This document shows positions 1,634 through 24,132 of a stretch of DNA of 64,000 nt, piece by piece. The notes under the pieces are model-generated. The model was given only the letters and a program-made list of their open reading frames with translations. It made no database searches and was not told the origin of the DNA. The stretch comes from Phycisphaerales bacterium (lineage in GTDB: Bacteria; Planctomycetota; Phycisphaerae; Phycisphaerales; SM1A02). A program made the translations under genes and the position numbers. The stretch is taken from the NCBI GenBank assembly GCA_029260575.1, contig JAJDDB010000027.1:188501-252500 (forward strand). The letters are read 5' to 3'. Numbering within the stretch: the first letter of the stretch is position 1; the number at the start of each line of letters is the position of its first letter.

Positions 1634-3090
1634 TGGGTATTGCACGCTGGACTTGCTGCTCGTTCATGCTGACGGCCATGGTTGGCTGTGGTTCGTCAAC
1701 ATTGCCGGATTCGACCGCTGCCGATTCGAATCAGAGTGATGACGCCACTGCCATTCAGACAGCAAACCAAACGCAGTCTTCGAACAGTGATAGTGATGTG
1801 AATGAGCGCGAAGATTCATCTGCTCCAACGCAGACAACAGCGGTCAATGCGGCCACTGATGATCATCCGGAACCATCACCTGTCACGTTCACGTTGTGCT
1901 CAGAAGGGCTGCCAACCAGCGGCATGTGGAAGTGCGATCCTGTCTTTGCAGACGTCAATAAGGATGGAAACATGGATCTTGCTGCGATCCCACGACTTGG
2001 CGACGGCCCCCAAGTCTGGTTCGGCGATGGCGCGGGTGCATGGACATCAGCATCGAATGGTCTCATGCGCACCGAAAGCAAGTCATGTGGCGGCGGTCTC
2101 AGACTGCATGATGTAAACAACGATGATGAACTTGATCTCGTCGTCGCAGATCATTGCGCGGGCGTGTACATCTATCTCGGTGATGGTGCAGGAAACTGGA
2201 ACATGGTCATGGAAGGCATGTATCCAGCCGACATTCTCCCGCCAAGTGGGATCGTCGAAAAATACCGCGGCGCAGAATCAATCGCCGTTGGTGACATCGA
2301 TAAAGACGGCAATGCAGACCTTGTCGTCGGCGCATCTGATGATGCTGGTATTCGAATGTATCTCGGCGATGGTACTGGTGCCGGCTGGTCGCGGCGCGAT
2401 GGCGGTCTTCCTGAGGCCGGCTGGGCTACGCGTGTTCAACTTGAAGACATGAACGACGACGGTTGGCTGGACATCATTGCAGCGTACAGCCTCGGGCCAC
2501 GGGTTTTCATCAACGAGGAAGGCGCCGCTTGGAAGGATGGATCACTTGGCATGCCCAGCCCGATGATGGGCGGTATTTTCTGGGGCATCGATGTCGCTGA
2601 TTTCAATGAAGATGGACGCAAAGATATTGCCGTCGCAAACTGGATCGATGGCCCGGAAGTCTATCTTCAAGGCGACGATGGCATGTGGACCAAGTCGCCT
2701 GATGTCTTTGAAGAGATGATGGGTGGTGCCCAGGGACTCGCTGTCGGCGACATTGATCTCGATGGGCATGTCGACATGGTTGTCGCCGGACGCAAGAATC
2801 TTGAGGGTGGCTTTATCCGTGGTGTATTCCTGCTCCTTGGCGATGGCACCGGAGGCGGCGCCTGGAAGTTCCTCGAACATTCAGGTTTGCCAGTCACCGG
2901 CCTTGCGGCGATGGCGGGAATCGGTCTGGCTGACATCAACAACGACGGCTATCTGGATGTCGCTGCAGGTTCAGGACTAATCGTTGAAACAGTACCCAAT
3001 GGCCCCAGAAGGCCTGCCTTACCAGTTCGTCTTCTCATGTGGTGCAACGACGCAAAATCGCAAACTGCCGTTGCTGCCCCAGAGGATTAA
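1633..3090 (+). CDS. Lipoprotein with seven FG-GAP/VCBS-type calcium-binding repeats
   Basis: The start ATG 1633 shares its A with the TGA stop of the preceding lipoprotein gene. The N-terminus is a lipoprotein signal ending at TAMVGC, followed by a Ser/Thr/Asp/Gln-rich linker to about residue 80. After that come seven repeats centred on Dx[ND]xDGxxD loops: DVNKDGNMDL, DVNNDDELDL, DIDKDGNADL, DMNDDGWLDI, DFNEDGRKDI, DIDLDGHVDM and DINNDGYLDV. These are typical of FG-GAP/VCBS beta-propeller blades, which bind calcium; seven blades would close a full propeller. The likely location is the outer surface of a membrane, where such propellers usually bind proteins or glycans. The partner is unknown, though the coupled lipoprotein upstream is an obvious candidate. 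Confidence 0.85.
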   Translation: MGIARWTCCSFMLTAMVGCGSSTLPDSTAADSNQSDDATAIQTANQTQSSNSDSDVNEREDSSAPTQTTAVNAATDDHPEPSPVTFTLCSEGLPTSGMWKCDPVFADVNKDGNMDLAAIPRLGDGPQVWFGDGAGAWTSASNGLMRTESKSCGGGLRLHDVNNDDELDLVVADHCAGVYIYLGDGAGNWNMVMEGMYPADILPPSGIVEKYRGAESIAVGDIDKDGNADLVVGASDDAGIRMYLGDGTGAGWSRRDGGLPEAGWATRVQLEDMNDDGWLDIIAAYSLGPRVFINEEGAAWKDGSLGMPSPMMGGIFWGIDVADFNEDGRKDIAVANWIDGPEVYLQGDDGMWTKSPDVFEEMMGGAQGLAVGDIDLDGHVDMVVAGRKNLEGGFIRGVFLLLGDGTGGGAWKFLEHSGLPVTGLAAMAGIGLADINNDGYLDVAAGSGLIVETVPNGPRRPALPVRLLMWCNDAKSQTAVAAPED

Positions 3091-3219
3091 TTGGCTTGGA
3101 TGCGCGGGTGGACGCGCATCGACATTTTGACCTAAGTGCCGTAACTTTGGCGTTTTGTGATTGTCACGTCCGGCTCAGGTCGCGATGATCTAGATGACAC
3201 ACCTTTGGAGGGGTGAAGA

Positions 3220-6200
3220 ATGAAACGCATCGTCCATTGTCTCGTGAAGCAGCTGTTCATGCCTGTGGTCTGTACCGCAGCCGTGCTCGGAGCTGCTTCG
3301 GTTGCGCCTGCTGAAGGCGACGCACAGCTCGGCCCCACGTTCGTCGCTGTGCCCGCACCCGAAGCTGGTCTGTCCGTCAATGTCGCCGGCGTGGGAATGA
3401 ATCCTACGCGTTCAGGGACGATCACTATTGACATTAATGGTCCGGTCCGCGCGGCATATCTATATTGGAACGGCGGCGGTGCCGAGTCTGCGATTGCGAC
3501 CGCGCAAGAGTTGGACCTTGCAGGTACCAACTACATTGGTACACAGATCGGCGTCGAACACGAAATCGAAGATGCGCTTGCATATCGCGCGGTCGTGACC
3601 AGTCAGATACAGACTGCGTTTACCGGCAGCGGTGTCGGCACATATAACTTCAACGTTTCCGATCCTACACCTGCTGACAATCTCGATCGAATGCACGGTG
3701 CAGCACTGGTTGTCATTTACGTCGACCAGTCTGATCCGAACGTGTACGGCGTGTCCATGTTCGATGGCGCCGACTATGCATTTCGACTTTTTGTCGGTGC
3801 CAACGCTGTGACTGTGCCGGTGACATTCAATTATCTGGCCGAACCGGCTGGACGCGTCGCCAAGTTGGCGCTGATTGTCGGTGAAGCAAAGCCCATTCGA
3901 CCCGACAGGTACACAATTTCCAACGGCCTCGGAACACAGACAATAAATAACGAACTGGCAAGCACCGATGGACCGGAGTTCGACACCGTTCTTCGAGACG
4001 TCACAATTCCTTCCGGCGATACAAGTACAACTGTGCAGCTCTTTTCGCCCGCAGAATTTACGAATTCCGATTCCTTGCTTTGGATAGTGGGCGCACTGCA
4101 ACTTCCGCTGGGCCCCCCGACAGGCGCATGCTGCTTCCCGGACGGCGATTGCCAGGTAATCGGCCAAACAGATTGCACAAACTCCGGCGGCACGTATATG
4201 GGTGACGGTATCGCATGCACGCCAACACTCTGTCGGGCCAAGTGCTGTCTGCCTGATGGTTCGTGTATTCTCGTGCCACCGGATGACTGCACCGCCCAGG
4301 GCGGCACAGCATTCTCATTCTTTGAAGACTGCTCAATCCCGACCAATTGCCCGGTGCCGACCGGTGGTTGCTGTCTGCCCAGCGGTGCATGCGCATCCCT
4401 GACCGAAGACGACTGCACCGCCGCCGGTGGAAACCTGTGGATGAACGGCATCGACTGCACACAGGTCGAATGCCCCGGCGCATGCTGCTTCACTGATGGC
4501 TCATGCCAGTTCATCTCACTGATCGATTGCACCAATGCCGGCGGCATCTACCGCGGTGACGGTGTGACGTGTGGAGCGGCAAATTGTGATTTGCCAATGG
4601 GTGCCTGCTGTTTGCCAGACGGCTCGTGTGATGTGCGCACTGAAGCTGATTGCAACGCAGCCAGCGGTCAATATTTCGGTGATGGTACTGACTGCACCGG
4701 TGTCCGCTGCGAAGGCGCATGCTGCCTCCCGAATGGAACATGCCTTGACAATCAAACGACAACCGAATGCGCCGCAGCCGGCGGAACCTACCAGGGCCTC
4801 GGCTCCACGTGCGCTACTGCCAACTGCCCTGATGGCGCGTGCTGTCTGCCTGATGGTTCCTGCCAGAACAACACCACGCAGCCACAGTGTGAAGTGACAC
4901 TCGGCGGCGTCTGGAGGGGACTCAATACTGACTGCGGCACTGTCCAGTGTCTTGGTGCATGCTGCCTCGTTGATGGCAGTTGCAGCCAGCAAACCAAAGC
5001 CGATTGCGATACTGCGCAGGGCTTCTGGTTCGGTCCGGACTCCTTGTGTGGGAACGTTCGCTGCGAAGGCGCGTGCTGTATGCAGGATGGATCCTGCCAG
5101 GCAGGCTTCACAGTCGGTGAATGCGCAGCAGCCGGTGGCAGCTTCATGGGTGTGAATTCGCAGTGTGGCCTCGTGCGCTGCACTGGCGCATGCTGTCTGC
5201 AGGACGGCAGCTGCCTTTCACAGCTCACACTGAGCGAATGTACACAGCAAAGCGGCGTGTGGCAGGGCTTGAATTCTTCTTGCGGTGCTGTGCAGTGTCT
5301 TGGAGCATGCTGCCTGCCGGATGGTGGTTGCGATGACAACCGCACCGCTGACGATTGTGTTAACAACCTCGGCGGAGTCTTCCAGGGCCTCGGCTCTGTG
5401 TGTGCAAACATTCGCTGCGAAGGTGCGTGCTGTCTCGGCGATGGCACATGCGTTGAAAATGCCACGCTTCAGGAATGCTTCCAGTTGCTCGGCATCTTCC
5501 AGGGTCTCGGCAGCGATTGCTCGCCGAACCCGTGTCCGCAGCCAACCGGCGCGTGCTGCCTCTTTGATGGCACATGTGTCGAAGCGATCTCCGAACAGGC
5601 ATGTAACGCACAGGGCGGCACCTATCAAGGTGATGATGTGCTCTGTGCAAACGTCGTCTGTCCAGTGCCGCCTCCGGGTGGCGGATGCTCGCCCAAGGGC
5701 AGCCTCGTCATCTTCTCGAAAGTCGAGATTCGCTGGGATGCCAATGGCAATCTGATCCAGGATACGTTCCTGCAACTTACCAACGACTTCCCGTCGTCGG
5801 TGCGCGTGAAGTTCTACTTCGTCAACGGCGATGCCCCACTGGCAGCTGCCGATGACGAACGACCGCACCCGGGTTGGAACTGGGCCAACAACACGATCGT
5901 GCTGACTGCTGATCAACCGACATATTGGTCTGCAGTGACAGGCCTCGGTGGAAACGGCCCGCAGGATCCGACATTCAGCCCGTTCACAGTGCTTGATCCG
6001 GGCTTCCCGCCCGGCCGACCTGACCCCGAGTCAAACACCGGCGAACGCCACCTGCGCGGTTTCATCCTCGCATGGGCGATCGACATCAACAGCAATGAGA
6101 TTCGCTGGAATCACCTCGCTGGTAACGCAACATTGGTGCATTACCGAGACGGTTACGCATGGGAGTATCCCGCCTGCGCCAAGCAGGTGAATACTGCTGC

Positions 6201-12228: not shown

Positions 12229-13031
12229 TGCGCACTAACAAACAAAGCAACTGCGGATTCACCATCACCGAGGTTCTCGTAACGATCAGTATCCTTTCTG
12301 TACTTGTAGGGCTGCTGCTGCCGGCTATCGGGTCGATGAAAACCGCCGCCCGCCAGGCACAGTGTCAGGCGAATCTTCGTCAGATGGCGATAGCTGCGAC
12401 CGCCTACACCACGATCTGGGATGCCTACCCTGCTGCGCTGCGTTACGAACAGGTTGATGGCGTGGCCCACCGCATTGCGTGGGACTGGGTGACGACCTTC
12501 TCCGGCCAGGTCATCGGCCCCGGTGCGTTGTGGCAATTTTCAGACAATCCCGACCGCGTGATGCAATGCCCCGGCTATCACGGCCCTTCAAACTTCAATG
12601 GAGATCCGCACACCGGCTACAACTACAACACCGACTATCTCGCGGGTGAAGCAGCCTATGTCGAGTTCGGTTGGGATATAGTCCGCCGAGGCACGCCGCC
12701 GCATGCCTGTCGGCTGCCCTCGAGAACCGCAATCTTCGGACTCGGCGGGTATTCCGGCGGCGCGAACAAATTCATGCGCTCGCCGGATAATCCAAACAAT
12801 ACCGACCTTTGGTCTATCTGTTCCGGCGCGCAGGCCCGTCGATACGGCGACGCCACCAACGTTGCGTATCTGGACGGCCATGTCCAATCGATCGAATTGC
12901 TGCATGACGGCCCCGGCGCTGACAACGAACAACTGCGGGATCTTCTCGGAGCACCCGAGAACGGCTTTCTGACGAATGACGGCAGCGCGTACGACCCGCG
13001 CAATCCGACACCCGCCGGAGCGCAGCCATGA
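12228..13031 (+). CDS. Prepilin-like (type II pseudopilin) protein, H-X9-DG class
   Basis: The ATG at 12228 shares its A with the TGA of the previous gene (TGATG). The N-terminus is a type IV prepilin signal: 'CGFTITEVLVTISILSVL', with cleavage expected after Gly, Phe+1 and Glu+5. The body has the 'QCQANLRQMAIAATAY' helix common in planctomycete DUF1559-like pseudopilins. Near the C-terminus, 'YGDATNVAYLDGHVQ' corresponds to the H-X9-DG motif, with Tyr in place of the His. It would be processed by a prepilin peptidase and assembled at the inner membrane. Its place in a B12-riboswitch operon suggests a role linked to export or display of the upstream protein, which is inference. Confidence 0.85.
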   Translation: MRTNKQSNCGFTITEVLVTISILSVLVGLLLPAIGSMKTAARQAQCQANLRQMAIAATAYTTIWDAYPAALRYEQVDGVAHRIAWDWVTTFSGQVIGPGALWQFSDNPDRVMQCPGYHGPSNFNGDPHTGYNYNTDYLAGEAAYVEFGWDIVRRGTPPHACRLPSRTAIFGLGGYSGGANKFMRSPDNPNNTDLWSICSGAQARRYGDATNVAYLDGHVQSIELLHDGPGADNEQLRDLLGAPENGFLTNDGSAYDPRNPTPAGAQP

Positions 13032-20286: not shown

Positions 20287-21339
20287 TTACCGGGCGAGAA
20301 TGTCCGCAACATCACGGAGAAATGCGTCCACTTCCTCTGGCTGTGTGTCAAAGCTGCACATCAACCGAAACACGTTCCAGTCGTGATCGCCAAATTGGTA
20401 GTACTGATAACCCTTGGCCAGCAGCGATGCATGCAACTGCTCACCCAAAACCGCAAATACACCATTGGATTCGACCGGAAACCGCAGCGCAACGCCCAGC
20501 TTCTGCAATCCATCGCCAAGTCGTTTTGCCATGGCATTGGAATGGCTCGCATGTCTCAACCAGCAACCATCCGCAAGCGTCGCAGCAAATGGCGCTGCCA
20601 CGAACCGATGCTTGCTCAACAGATGCCCTGTCCCCTTGCGGTGATGTTCAAACGACCGCACTGCTCGCTCATACGCCGTGCCGTCGGCCTGCGGAAAGAA
20701 CAACACCGCTTCGCCATATGCCAGGCCGTTCTTTGTGCCGCCGAAACTCAGACCATCAACGCCCGCTGCACCCGCGAGCTTCGCTGGGTCACACCCCGCT
20801 GATGCAACTGCATTTGCGAACCGCGCACCATCCACATGCATCCGATAACCTGCGGCATGCGCTGCATCACAAAGCTGCCGCAACTCCTTCGGCTGATAGA
20901 TCGTCCCGAACTCCGTCGCATTACTCAGCGAAACCACACCCGGATGCGGCTCATGGACATCACCCCGCCCCGCTGCTGCGATCCGCTCGATATCCGCCAA
21001 TTCAAGCCGGCTTGATTCTGTATGAATCGCCGTCATGCGGCACTGCGTGATCCGTTCGGGCGCTGTCGACTCATCATCATTCAGATGGCTGTGGCCGTGA
21101 CAGACAATCCGCTGCCACGGCTCAGTCAGCGCAGCAATGCCAAGCGTATTCGCGGCAGTTCCCGTCGCCACAAAATACGTCGCTGTGTCAAGACCAAACA
21201 CATCGCGAAACGCATCCAATGCACGCTCGGTCGCCGCATCATCACCGTACGCAACGACGTGTCCGGTATTGACCTTCACCAACGCATCCAAAGCCTCCGG
21301 CACCAGACCCGCGTTGTTGTCACTCCGAAAAGTCCGCAT
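20287..21339 (-). CDS. ltaE: Low-specificity L-threonine aldolase
   Basis: This PLP enzyme cleaves L-threonine and allo-threonine to glycine and acetaldehyde. The fold-type I marks are visible: start 'FRSDNNAGLVPEAL', 'GDDAATERALDAF', 'VATGTAANTLGI', 'HSHLNDDES', 'MHVDGARFANA' and the PLP-lysine motif 'GLSFGGTKNGL'. The 350 residues fit the family. It diverges from the AhpD-like gene at 21401, with 61 bases between the two starts, so both promoters must share that space. Confidence 0.92.
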   Translation of the reverse strand: MRTFRSDNNAGLVPEALDALVKVNTGHVVAYGDDAATERALDAFRDVFGLDTATYFVATGTAANTLGIAALTEPWQRIVCHGHSHLNDDESTAPERITQCRMTAIHTESSRLELADIERIAAAGRGDVHEPHPGVVSLSNATEFGTIYQPKELRQLCDAAHAAGYRMHVDGARFANAVASAGCDPAKLAGAAGVDGLSFGGTKNGLAYGEAVLFFPQADGTAYERAVRSFEHHRKGTGHLLSKHRFVAAPFAATLADGCWLRHASHSNAMAKRLGDGLQKLGVALRFPVESNGVFAVLGEQLHASLLAKGYQYYQFGDHDWNVFRLMCSFDTQPEEVDAFLRDVADILAR

Positions 21340-21400: not shown

Positions 21401-21970
21401 ATGCCCTACATCGACACCATCGACGAATCTAACGCTACCGGCCCTCTCGCCGCGCTCTACAAACGAACGGGCAACCCTGATGGCACCGTCGACAACGTCA
21501 TGAAGATTCACGCGCTCAATCCTGATTCGCTGACCGCACACTTTGAGCTCTACGTCCAGTGCATGCACAAAACGTCGCCCCTCACCAGGGCCGAGCGCGA
21601 AATGGTCGCCGTCGTCGTCAGCCGGCTCAACGGCTGCAGATATTGCAAAGATCATCACCTCTCCGGCCTGAAACGACTCATGCCCGAAGATCGGCATCAC
21701 CACGCAGATGACCTTGCCGTCGGCCGCCGAACCGCAATCACCAAACGCGAACAGGCGCTCGCCGACTACGCCATGAAACTCACAACTAATCCGCAGGGTA
21801 TGACCAGCGATGACACGGAAGCGCTGCGCGCCGCTGGCCTGGACGATCGCGCAATCCTCGACCTCGCCCAGTGCATCGGCTACTTCAACTACGTCAACCG
21901 AATCGTCACCGGCCTGGGCGTGAACATCGAAGACACCGTCACCCCCGGCCAGTGGCCGGATGCGGAGTGA
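21401..21970 (+). CDS. AhpD/carboxymuconolactone-decarboxylase-like peroxidase
   Basis: I chose ATG 21401 because GGAG lies 8 bases upstream and the family N-terminus starts here. The AhpD redox motif is 'NGCRYCKDHH' (C-x2-C-x3-H), preceded by 'LTRAEREMVAVVVSRL'. Together they mark the 'peroxidase-related' alkylhydroperoxidase group. The C-terminal helix 'ILDLAQCIGYFNYVNRI' forms the usual second part of the site. The likely role is cytoplasmic thiol-dependent peroxide or organic hydroperoxide reduction. It is divergent from ltaE and stands alone. Confidence 0.88.
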   Translation: MPYIDTIDESNATGPLAALYKRTGNPDGTVDNVMKIHALNPDSLTAHFELYVQCMHKTSPLTRAEREMVAVVVSRLNGCRYCKDHHLSGLKRLMPEDRHHHADDLAVGRRTAITKREQALADYAMKLTTNPQGMTSDDTEALRAAGLDDRAILDLAQCIGYFNYVNRIVTGLGVNIEDTVTPGQWPDAE

Positions 21971-22157: not shown

Positions 22158-22535
22158 TCACCCTTGCAGCGACTTTGACAACATGTACTTGTTCCCATCC
22201 GGATCAAAGAACGTCGCCAGCCGCACCATGCCCTCGATCGTCATCGTGTCGCCGTCGAATCGCACATCCTTCGATTCGAGTTCGCTGCGGGCTTTGTCAA
22301 TATCCTCAACACTAAAAACCAGCGTCGCGCCGCCTTTCACCTCCGGCTTCTCGACCTGCGAAATGCCGACCGTGACCTTGTCCACCGGCGTCGTCAGTTC
22401 GCACCAGCCGATTTCATCGACACGGTACTGAAGCTGAAAACCCAGCACATTTTGATACCACTCGATAGCAGCCGTCATATCCGCGCACTGGATCGCACAC
22501 GTCAGATCACCCTGATACTTGATTGAACACCCCAT
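22158..22535 (-). CDS. VOC-superfamily (glyoxalase/bleomycin-resistance-like) protein
   Basis: This 125-residue protein starts at ATG 22535 with a strong AAGGAG Shine-Dalgarno six bases upstream. It shows the paired beta-alpha-beta-beta-beta modules of the VOC fold: 'MTAAIEWYQNVLGFQLQYR' in the first half and 'VFSVEDIDKARSELESKDV', 'ATFFDPDGNKYML' in the second. Candidate metal-site residues are near 'TCAIQC' and 'WCELTTP', but the first-strand His is not present, so it may be a binding protein. The promoter at 22666-22694 is nearly identical to that of the second VOC gene, with the HxlR-type regulator gene between them. Confidence 0.88.
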   Translation of the reverse strand: MGCSIKYQGDLTCAIQCADMTAAIEWYQNVLGFQLQYRVDEIGWCELTTPVDKVTVGISQVEKPEVKGGATLVFSVEDIDKARSELESKDVRFDGDTMTIEGMVRLATFFDPDGNKYMLSKSLQG

Positions 22536-22665
22536 CGAACGCTCCTTTCGTCATCTCCCGCCATCGACGAGCACACAGGTAGATGCCAACGACCCTTTAC
22601 TGCTACCAATGTAGCTGAGGGAATTTGAGGACAAGAATTCTGCAGCCCAGTGCTGCGGTCATACG

Positions 22666-22694
22666 ATAGTATATCTAGTATACTTACGTGTCAA
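22666..22694 (-). promoter_or_regulatory. Sigma-70 promoter with palindromic operator in the spacer (VOC gene 1 / HxlR regulator)
   Basis: Read on the minus strand, TTGACA (22694-22689), a 17-base spacer and TACTAT (22671-22666) form a good sigma-70 promoter aimed at the VOC gene at 22158-22535. The spacer and -10 hold an inverted repeat, AGTATA-N5-TATACT (22668-22684). On the plus strand TATACT (22679-22684) could be the -10 of the divergent regulator gene. A near copy lies at 24104-24132. Confidence 0.75.
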
Positions 22695-22756
22695 CTGATG
22701 TCCGACACACCGTCAGCGGCCTCGGCTGTGGGTATTCATTTTCGAAACCGATCATC

Positions 22757-23329
22757 ATGATCATCTCATTGCACAACATCACTTCACTGTTTCACCACCG
22801 CTGGGCAGTGCCCGTCATTGCCGAACTCCACCAGGCCGGTGGCGGCGCGAAGTTCATCACACTCCTGCACCGCCTGCACACCAACCGTCCATCCCTGAAA
22901 CGAACGTTGGACCATCTCGTAGATGCTGGCCTCGTGCAATCCAATCCCGGCTACGGCCACCCGATGCGGCCTGAATTCATACTCACCAAAAGCGGCAAGG
23001 AGCTCGGCCCGCACTGCGCCCGAATCATGAAGCTGCTTCACCGCCTTGACCTTGTCGATGTCGGCCTGCGCAAGTGGCCGATGTGCATCATCGCTGCGAT
23101 GGATCACGGTGCGCTGCGCTTCACCGACATTCGTACAGCCCTGCCCGACATCACTGCGCGTGCCCTGACACTTGCGCTCAAACAGATGCAGGATGCCACG
23201 ATTATCGAGCGGACGGTCTTCGACGATTCGCCGCCGGTGGTGGAATACAAACTGCATCGCAAAGCCCGTTCGATTGCTGAATCGGTCACATCGCTAGCCC
23301 GCGCTGCAGACAAGAGTCGCGCAGCCTGA
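22757..23329 (+). CDS. Tandem-domain HxlR-type transcriptional regulator
   Basis: The 190-residue protein has two winged-helix halves in a row. The first (residues about 10-95) has 'HHRWAVPVIAEL', 'TNRPSLKRTLDHLVDAGLV' and 'RPEFILTKSGKEL'. The second (about 105-180) has 'RKWPMCIIAAMDHGALRF', 'DITARALTLALKQMQDATII' and 'VVEYKLHRKARSI'. Both follow the HxlR pattern. One polypeptide could thus do what an HxlR dimer normally does. A GTG at 22688 in the same frame is an alternative start, inside the operator. It is divergent from VOC gene 1 and convergent with VOC gene 2; its TGA nearly touches the other stop, inside a 16-bp palindrome (23326-23341). Confidence 0.8.
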   Translation: MIISLHNITSLFHHRWAVPVIAELHQAGGGAKFITLLHRLHTNRPSLKRTLDHLVDAGLVQSNPGYGHPMRPEFILTKSGKELGPHCARIMKLLHRLDLVDVGLRKWPMCIIAAMDHGALRFTDIRTALPDITARALTLALKQMQDATIIERTVFDDSPPVVEYKLHRKARSIAESVTSLARAADKSRAA

Positions 23330-23330
23330 T

Positions 23331-23852
23331 TCATGAATCAGCATCCGGCGGACCCGCAAGCCGCAAACGATTTCCATCGGGATCCTGAAAATCCGCCAAT
23401 TTCACAACGCCCGGAATGTTGATCGTCGGCCGAGCGAATTTCACACCGCGCGATTCCAGAAGCGCTCTCGCCGCATCGACATTCTTCACGCCGATGTTGA
23501 TGGATGTACTGCCGCTGCCGGCGACCGTGTCCTGCCGACCGATACCGATCCGCACGCCGGGCACATTCGTATCAAATTTTGCCCACTCCAGTTCCGGCTC
23601 ATGTGAAGCGAGTTTCAACTCCAGTACATCCCGATAGAACGCCATCGATTTTTCTAGATCAGCCACTGCCAGTTGAATCAGAAGGTCAGCGCCATATTCG
23701 ATGTGCTGCTGATTCACAGGTGCGGCATCATCCGCTATCGCAATTCGGTCCGGCACAACAACAAGTAATCCAACAGCCGCCGCAACCAATATCGCTGATA
23801 CACACAACTGCAAGAGTAATACCGACTTCCGTCCAACTCGATTTGTACGCAT
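23331..23852 (-). CDS. VOC-superfamily protein with an N-terminal signal/membrane segment
   Basis: I chose ATG 23852 because AGAGG lies eight bases upstream; an ATG at 23858 is too close to it. Residues 1-35 are a positively charged start and hydrophobic segment ('LLQLCVSAILVAAAVGLLVV'), so the protein is exported or membrane-anchored. The VOC domain follows: 'LIQLAVADLEKSMAFYRDVL', 'VRIGIGRQDTVAG', 'NIGVKNVDAARALLESRGV', 'LADFQDPDGNRLRLAG'. The soluble relative at 22158-22535 shares its promoter type, so the two are probably induced together, one in each compartment. Ligand unknown. Confidence 0.85.
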   Translation of the reverse strand: MRTNRVGRKSVLLLQLCVSAILVAAAVGLLVVVPDRIAIADDAAPVNQQHIEYGADLLIQLAVADLEKSMAFYRDVLELKLASHEPELEWAKFDTNVPGVRIGIGRQDTVAGSGSTSINIGVKNVDAARALLESRGVKFARPTINIPGVVKLADFQDPDGNRLRLAGPPDADS

Positions 23853-24040
23853 TGACATCACCTCTTTCAATTGACCCTGCCGAAACTTCGCCGCCAAACC
23901 GTCACCCCCCCCAATTCGTAATTTGCATCCGTCAAATACAGGATCACAAATTGCGATGTGACAAAGAAACCCAACCTGCACCCAGTACGCAGTGCCTATC
24001 ACTCAGTGCACAACACGCCTCGCCCAATGCCCAGCACAAC

Positions 24041-24074
24041 CGCACATCCGCACATCCGCACATCCGCACATCCG
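24041..24074. repeat. Tandem octamer repeat (CGCACATC)x4
   Basis: Four exact head-to-tail copies of CGCACATC, ending with CG, lie inside the presumed leader of VOC gene 2. Such short arrays change copy number by slippage and could vary leader length. Confidence 0.85.
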
Positions 24075-24103
24075 TGAGAACACCCGCCCTCTCCGTTCAA
24101 ACT

Positions 24104-24132
24104 ATTTTATATCAAGTATACTTTTATGTCAA
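24104..24132 (-). promoter_or_regulatory. Sigma-70 promoter with operator in the spacer (VOC gene 2)
   Basis: Read on the minus strand, TTGACA, a 17-base spacer and TAAAAT form a strong promoter. The spacer contains the palindrome AAGTATACTT (24114-24123). Aligned with 22668-22684 the operator matches at 14 of 17 positions, and the TATACT half-site and the -35 are identical. It points to VOC gene 2 at 23331-23852. Confidence 0.7.

Follow-up and report, generated by a model that had tools for sequence, protein, structure and literature searches.

Do two nearly identical promoters, each directed at a gene for a VOC protein, belong to one regulon under the HxlR-like regulator encoded between these genes? 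The question is raised by a locus in the 4.1-Mb genome of a Phycisphaerales bacterium (GCA_029260575.1, contig JAJDDB010000027.1, positions 188,501-252,500; this stretch of 64,000 nt is termed the window). Compared loci carry L-numbers and compared genomes G-numbers. The features of the locus, in window coordinates, are:

22158-22535, minus strand: VOC1, cytoplasmic protein of the VOC fold, 125 aa; Pfam Glyoxalase, 55.6 bits
22757-23329, plus strand: tandem HxlR regulator, 190 aa from the ATG at 22757; two HxlR stretches
23331-23852, minus strand: VOC2, VOC protein with a hydrophobic N-terminus, 173 aa; Pfam Glyoxalase, 40.6 bits
22666-22694, minus strand: promoter 1, read directly; TTGACA at 22694-22689, 17-base spacer, TACTAT at 22671-22666
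24104-24132, minus strand: promoter 2, read directly; TTGACA at 24132-24127, 17-base spacer, TAAAAT at 24109-24104
22668-22684, no strand: operator 1, 17-bp palindrome AGTATATCTAGTATACT, spanning spacer and -10
24106-24122, no strand: operator 2, TTTATATCAAGTATACT, one arm whole, the other with two mismatches

The regulator gene is divergent from VOC1 and lies tail to tail with VOC2. The ATG of VOC1 is preceded by AAGGAG at a distance of six bases, and that of VOC2 has AGAGGTGA upstream. For the regulator an in-frame GTG at 22688 is an alternative start; the alignments of its relatives start near 22757. Promoter 1 is directed at VOC1 and promoter 2 at VOC2, whose leader would be about 245 bases long. 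Four head-to-tail copies of GCACATCC lie in this leader, at 24042-24073.

The regulator and its family

The preliminary description had read the regulator as two HxlR units in a single chain. The whole protein scores 84.9 bits against the Pfam HxlR profile (PF01638, curated cut-off 20.8 bits), and each half on its own is above the cut-off, with 25.6 bits for domain 1 and 64.2 bits for domain 2. The first halves of four relatives score 21.1 to 40.8 bits against the same profile. Moreover, the AlphaFold2 model, based on 73 aligned proteins, is confident (pLDDT 96.0, pTM 0.90) and consists of two like units, each with the order helix-helix-helix-helix-strand-strand-helix. Both the tandem arrangement and the two-domain structure expected at the outset were thus borne out, and two units in one chain would fit the predicted pseudo-dimer. 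The best solved structural matches of the model include YodB, HxlR, HypR and QsrR. Domain 2 (residues ~92-190) matches HypR, HxlR and QsrR with Z-scores of 11.7 to 12.7, but these do not tell the HxlR from the MarR type because the MarR-type proteins ZitR and AdcR reach 11.8. The protein is assigned to the HxlR family by its profile score and its fold, the latter being based, for domain 1, on the profile match and the matching order of helices and strands.

Among 201 genomes, including that of the window, we found 27 near-full-length relatives besides the window regulator; 24 further genomes contain partial matches only. In this whole-protein search, which made no use of the motif they form, residues G65, G67, H68, P69, R71, P72 and E73 are invariant in 28/28 proteins, and the model locates the resulting G-x-GHP-x-RPE motif in the wing of domain 1, between its two strands. 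A collection of species genomes was searched with the pattern G[YH]GHP[LM]RPE, which yielded 552 stretches; 536 of these were relatives, and the best 80 were analysed. Since these loci were picked by the pattern, the presence of the motif in their alignment is by construction, and 28/28 is the unbiased count. The alignment comprises 72 of the 80 regulators and that of the window (L084, L086, L109, L112, L115, L130, L147 and L148 were left out). Its columns with at least eight cysteines among the 73 proteins are those of F12 (in 10), A31 (in 8) and C87 (in 53), and six of the proteins have no cysteine at all. A conserved cysteine before or in helix 1 was not found, as no column near the start of either unit has one in more than 10 of the 73. 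C87, by comparison, lies in helix 5 of domain 1, and its presence in 53/73 proteins means that thiol sensing there is possible.

In 26 of the 27 relatives of the order, VOC1 is encoded upstream of the regulator, on the opposite strand; the contig of the 27th ends. Four of the 26 (L015, L017, L018 and L019) have 0.6 to 1.4 kb between the two genes. In the best 80 of the 536 relatives, VOC1 is upstream and divergent in 78, including L073, where its reading frame looks broken, and L071, L076 and L084, where the gap exceeds 500 bases. It is absent at L089, where the contig ends, and at L110, where another gene takes its place. By their labels the loci come from Planctomycetota, Acidobacteriota, Actinomycetota, Proteobacteria, Chloroflexi, Zixibacteriota-type bins and further groups. 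Mislabelling is possible in the majority, which are metagenome bins; the named strains among the loci are Kribbella steppae, K. pittospori, Sphingosinicella terrae and Calidithermus chliarophilus.

Some neighbouring genes were of note in themselves. Directly past VOC1 the window has a peroxidase-related gene (21401-21970; AhpD-like, TIGR01926); a gene for a beta-eliminating lyase lies at 20287-21339. The peroxidase-related gene has a weak match in only one of the 27 related loci (L035), 2.8 kb from the regulator start. Judged by eye, a protein similar to the lyase is encoded behind VOC1 in L071 (1713-2774), and the gene order is perhaps shared. L071 also has a DinB-like gene, again by eye, between the operator and VOC1 (3286-3936), apparently under the same promoter. 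At L110 the divergent neighbour of the regulator is a long minus-strand reading frame (2601-3908) with a hydrophobic N-terminal stretch, and at L076 short repeats of the TTCGACG type form an array (3641-3913) that directly precedes the regulator.

A promoter with an operator-like element shared by the two VOC genes

Promoters 1 and 2 are 1438 bases apart and both combine TTGACA with a 17-base spacer, in agreement with the initial reading of near-identical minus-strand promoters 1.4 kb from each other. AGTATACT lies in both spacers and has no other occurrence in the window; in the shuffled-sequence control at least two copies also appeared in one shuffle. The longer AGTATACTNGATATA, common to both promoters, occurs exactly nowhere else in the 4.1-Mb genome and at one further place with two mismatches. 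Within the window AGTATANNNNNTATACT is exact at 22668-22684 and has two mismatches at 24106-24122 and at a third place, 12288-12304. Scanning the genome for AGTATA-N5-TATACT, as had been proposed, returned operator 1 as the sole exact copy. Loose matches, with up to two mismatches, are found at 13 places versus 52 for the reversed control, and they are therefore background, uninformative at the genome level. The operator had been placed inside the promoter spacer: this holds for its left half, but the right half overlaps the -10, so that the spacer alone does not contain it.

The cores of the two promoters are identical at 24/31 bases, whereas their flanks agree at only 7/26 and 12/24, which indicates a conserved element rather than a recent duplication of a block. 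A chance likeness of the two promoters is ruled out by the uniqueness of AGTATACTNGATATA to both of them genome-wide and by the flank and matrix tests. The shared promoter with its operator-like element at VOC1 and VOC2 is real.

The element is also found outside the window. The motif search covered 76 intergenic regions, one from each of 75 loci and one from the window (L089 and L110, which have no VOC1, and L071, L076 and L084, with their wide gap, were set aside), and gave a consensus near TTGAC-N-AAAGTATAG-N3-CTATACTTT. The family form of the operator, a conserved inverted repeat, is AAAGTATAG-N3-CTATACT, following TTGAC between VOC1 and the regulator. In the 75 loci AGTATAG-N3-CTATACT with up to two mismatches is found at 35 of 11,460 intergenic positions versus 0 of 569,185 others. 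At three mismatches there are 16 intergenic matches versus one elsewhere, and at four, 24 versus 22, where the excess fades. A matrix built from 39 planctomycete loci places the best site of the locus in this intergenic region in 26 of 29 loci labelled with other phyla, the misses being L080, L138 and L139, the last from Calidithermus; the test was run without seven loci of unclear label (L081, L082, L091, L106, L133, L134 and L140). With a matrix from the 75 loci, window excluded, promoter 2 scores 31.0 bits, the best in the window, and promoter 1 28.4 bits, the second best. Read on the opposite strand, these two sites have 28.1 and 22.8 bits. No other separate place in the window scores above 7.9 bits, and 60 random 64-kb sequences reach at most 16.1 bits.

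When up to one mismatch is allowed, the family motif has 17 occurrences in the 201 genomes, spread over 16 of them and thus mostly one per genome; 14 of the 17 are at a tandem-HxlR gene. The reversed control, by our own count, has 29 places and so outnumbers the close copies, which makes location, not number, the evidence. A widespread motif unrelated to HxlR genes, the outcome that would have spoken against the tie proposed between this element and the HxlR gene, is thereby ruled out for these 201 genomes. The genome of the window is not among the 16, because operator 1 has two mismatches to the family consensus; it has two sites, both of its own motif variant. The other three close copies belong to G150 (two) and G144 (one). 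The pair in G150 is 0.5 kb apart (L165) and has a MarR-like gene nearby; no match to the tandem regulator was found in this genome. The comparison across loci suggests that the regulator and VOC1, with their shared element, form a real regulon. Sequence and model together support the structural claims made for the locus, namely the shared element, two VOC targets and a tandem HxlR protein in one chain.

VOC proteins and their downstream partners

The reading of two VOC genes behind the paired promoters also stands, as VOC1 and VOC2 both match the Pfam Glyoxalase profile. Their place in the VOC superfamily is given by the Glyoxalase/Ble profile for both proteins and, for VOC1, by the fold as well. 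The AlphaFold2 model of VOC1 (pLDDT 96.4) has TnmS1 as its best solved match (E 2.7e-10, 24% identity). The VOC fold is common, with 334 structural matches at E 0.001 or better, and the match to TnmS1 therefore does not fix the ligand. In an alignment of 58 VOC1 proteins (57 of the 78 and that of the window) the invariant columns include no histidine and one glutamate (E46); E62 and E87 are almost invariant. The missing histidine speaks to some degree against the usual metal site, whose ligand positions were placed by eye and not from a structure.

VOC2 is likely exported, judging by its hydrophobic N-terminus as seen by eye, and is 34% identical to VOC1. Relatives of VOC2 (46 to 51% identity within the matched part) lie directly behind VOC1 in L016, L024 and L040. 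The VOC1-VOC2 pair is therefore old, and the window is a variant in which VOC2 is found across the regulator, with its own copy of the promoter. Relatives of VOC2 with hydrophobic N-termini are also found directly behind VOC1 in L072 and L092. More often the gene behind VOC1, on the same strand, encodes a DUF6265 protein: this is the case in 31 of the best 80 of the 536 loci, as counted with a home-made profile and a coordinate rule (L074 and L112 fall outside the rule, and in L133 the gene is on the other side). Pfam detects DUF6265 in 7 of 10 downstream proteins checked, two of the seven being fused to VOC domains. These two (L092, 2512-3447; L093, 2152-3411) combine one or more VOC domains with DUF6265 after a hydrophobic N-terminus and thus join the two families. 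In the largest downstream group, of 29 proteins, nearly all start with a hydrophobic stretch according to a simple hydropathy scan rather than a signal-peptide predictor, L078 being an exception. Exported-looking partners, DUF6265 and sometimes VOC proteins, are common. The DUF6265 gene in the genome of the window is on contig C16, and this contig has no match to AGTATA-N5-TATACT or AGTATACTNGATATA.

How the regulator may act

We consider it probable that a single-chain HxlR pseudo-dimer represses VOC1 and VOC2 until a ligand releases it, a reading built on sequences, models and analogy. The regulator, its two HxlR units folded together as a pseudo-dimer, would sit on AGTATA-N5-TATACT over the spacer and the -10 of the VOC1 promoter and block RNA polymerase. 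Through the second copy of promoter and operator it would likewise control VOC2, probably an exported protein. A small molecule would bind or modify the regulator, which would then leave the DNA, and VOC1 and VOC2 would in turn bind or transform that molecule. Repression is the simplest reading of one chain per site over spacer and -10. As the palindrome ends 72 bases before its ATG, the regulator may also limit its own synthesis. What supports this at the level of sequence is the gene order, the tandem domains, the conserved element and the concentration of that element at this gene pair; from there we infer binding, repression rather than activation, autoregulation, release by a ligand and the function of the VOC proteins. 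A stress or xenobiotic role, as suggested in the preliminary description, would be a further step of inference. The TATA centres of the operator are 9 bp apart, about one turn, which is compatible with the 34.8 Å between the recognition helices of DNA-bound HxlR-family dimers, which dimerise via helices 1 and 5 (PMC7835342).

The main alternative, which we regard as rather unlikely, is that the regulator is an activator: bound to the spacer, it would realign a promoter with poor -10 spacing and switch VOC1 on. With the TATACT right half as the -10, the motif sites have a spacing of 15 to 16 bases, as counted by eye, and such short spacing is typical of promoters realigned by a bound activator. 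A 17-base spacing is, however, also possible at both window sites and at many others. Moreover, sites over the -10 are usually repressive, although a regulator bound across spacer and -10 could conceivably still activate. HxlR of Bacillus, on the other hand, is an activator (PMC7835342).

It is improbable that the repeated element amounts to no more than a strong promoter of a common type, with the regulator acting elsewhere or the genes being mere neighbours. TTGACA and TATA are indeed plain sigma-70 elements, but promoters of this kind do not require such a sequence in their spacer, and the left half-site is conserved within the spacer across loci, including those of other phyla; the placement of 14 of the 17 close copies at the regulator also argues against this reading. 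Still less credible is a recent duplication of VOC1 with its promoter that gave rise to VOC2. The two are both VOC proteins, yet their low identity, the unlike flanks of the promoters and the age of the pair, seen in L016, L024 and L040, led us to reject it.

For the favoured repressor, covariation between regulators and sites hints at which residues might contact the operator. Across 67 regulator-site pairs and 354 residue states, the strongest association of C at motif offset +8 is with Asp134 (r 0.58), and the next, a negative one, is with Arg126 in the same HTH (r -0.55). Residue 134 is the first of the recognition helix of domain 2, and its column ranks first by z-score at offsets +4, +8 and +13, though not at -3, -1 and +14. 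Proteins with Asp134 have G at +4 in 21/21 cases and C at +8 in 20/21. On the tree five changes suffice to explain Asp134, and 17 of the 21 proteins are in one group; the independent-pairs test has too few pairs for a decision, and the association is thus a hint of a contact with offset +8, for which shared descent is an alternative. A wider proposal, which we put forward only tentatively, is that domain 2 reads the bases at the operator centre with the start of its recognition helix, and domain 1, with its invariant G-x-GHP-x-RPE wing and the frequent cysteine in the helix that lies between the units, serves as clamp or sensor. The family would then be a widespread, so far undescribed class of single-chain HxlR switches. 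Under its control a shield in two compartments, made of a cytoplasmic VOC protein together with an exported VOC protein or an exported DUF6265 protein, would act against a single type of diffusible compound.

Known systems and meaning of the module

The regulator shares Pfam family and fold with YodB, CatR, HypR and QsrR (MarR/DUF24, HxlR), of which QsrR recognises GTATA-N5-TATAC. A search of open-licence papers for GTATAN5TATAC found no match. These regulators are dimers of separate chains, unlike the window regulator with its two units in one chain, and they are also set apart from its family by the invariant G-x-GHP-x-RPE in the wing of domain 1. Moreover, the cysteine with which YodB, CatR and QsrR sense lies close to the N-terminus, at Cys5 to Cys7, and the family of the window has no conserved one there. 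QsrR acts at the promoters of detoxification genes, which it represses until quinones release it (PMC6798810 and PMC7845598); release by a ligand, and detoxification or sequestration by the VOC proteins, would by analogy follow this QsrR/YodB pattern. HxlR of Bacillus subtilis has the same fold as the window regulator and senses formaldehyde via Cys11 and Lys13 (PMC7835342), whereas no comparable conserved cysteine was seen in the tandem family. The authors of that study fused two HxlR subunits in one chain through a fluorescent protein (PMC7835342).

Natural two-domain winged-helix regulators, thought to be single-chain dimers, are SarS and SarU of Staphylococcus; they belong to the SarA branch, not to HxlR, and their targets differ. 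Open-licence papers gave no match for SarS/SarU as two-domain winged-helix proteins. On the side of the VOC proteins, the closest comparison is with the drug-binding TnmS1-TnmS3 and ZbmA, which have a role in self-protection. TnmS1 is the match of the VOC1 model discussed above; TnmS3 was solved with tiancimycin and ZbmA with zorbamycin, and for VOC1 the structural match leaves the ligand unfixed.

As a kind of module, an HxlR switch with small detoxification-type genes is not exotic. Among the matches listed in the open-licence literature, however, we found no tandem HxlR protein with its own operator that is kept beside the same VOC gene in loci of several phyla, and none for DUF6265. Because regulator, operator and target are kept together in loci labelled with several phyla, sequence is enough to predict the site, and a test of it takes one protein and one oligonucleotide. 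Moreover, in this natural HxlR fusion the halves can be mutated one at a time, which is impossible in a homodimer. Finally, DUF6265 and the exported VOC partners gain a first functional context, directly behind a VOC gene that seems to be controlled by this switch.
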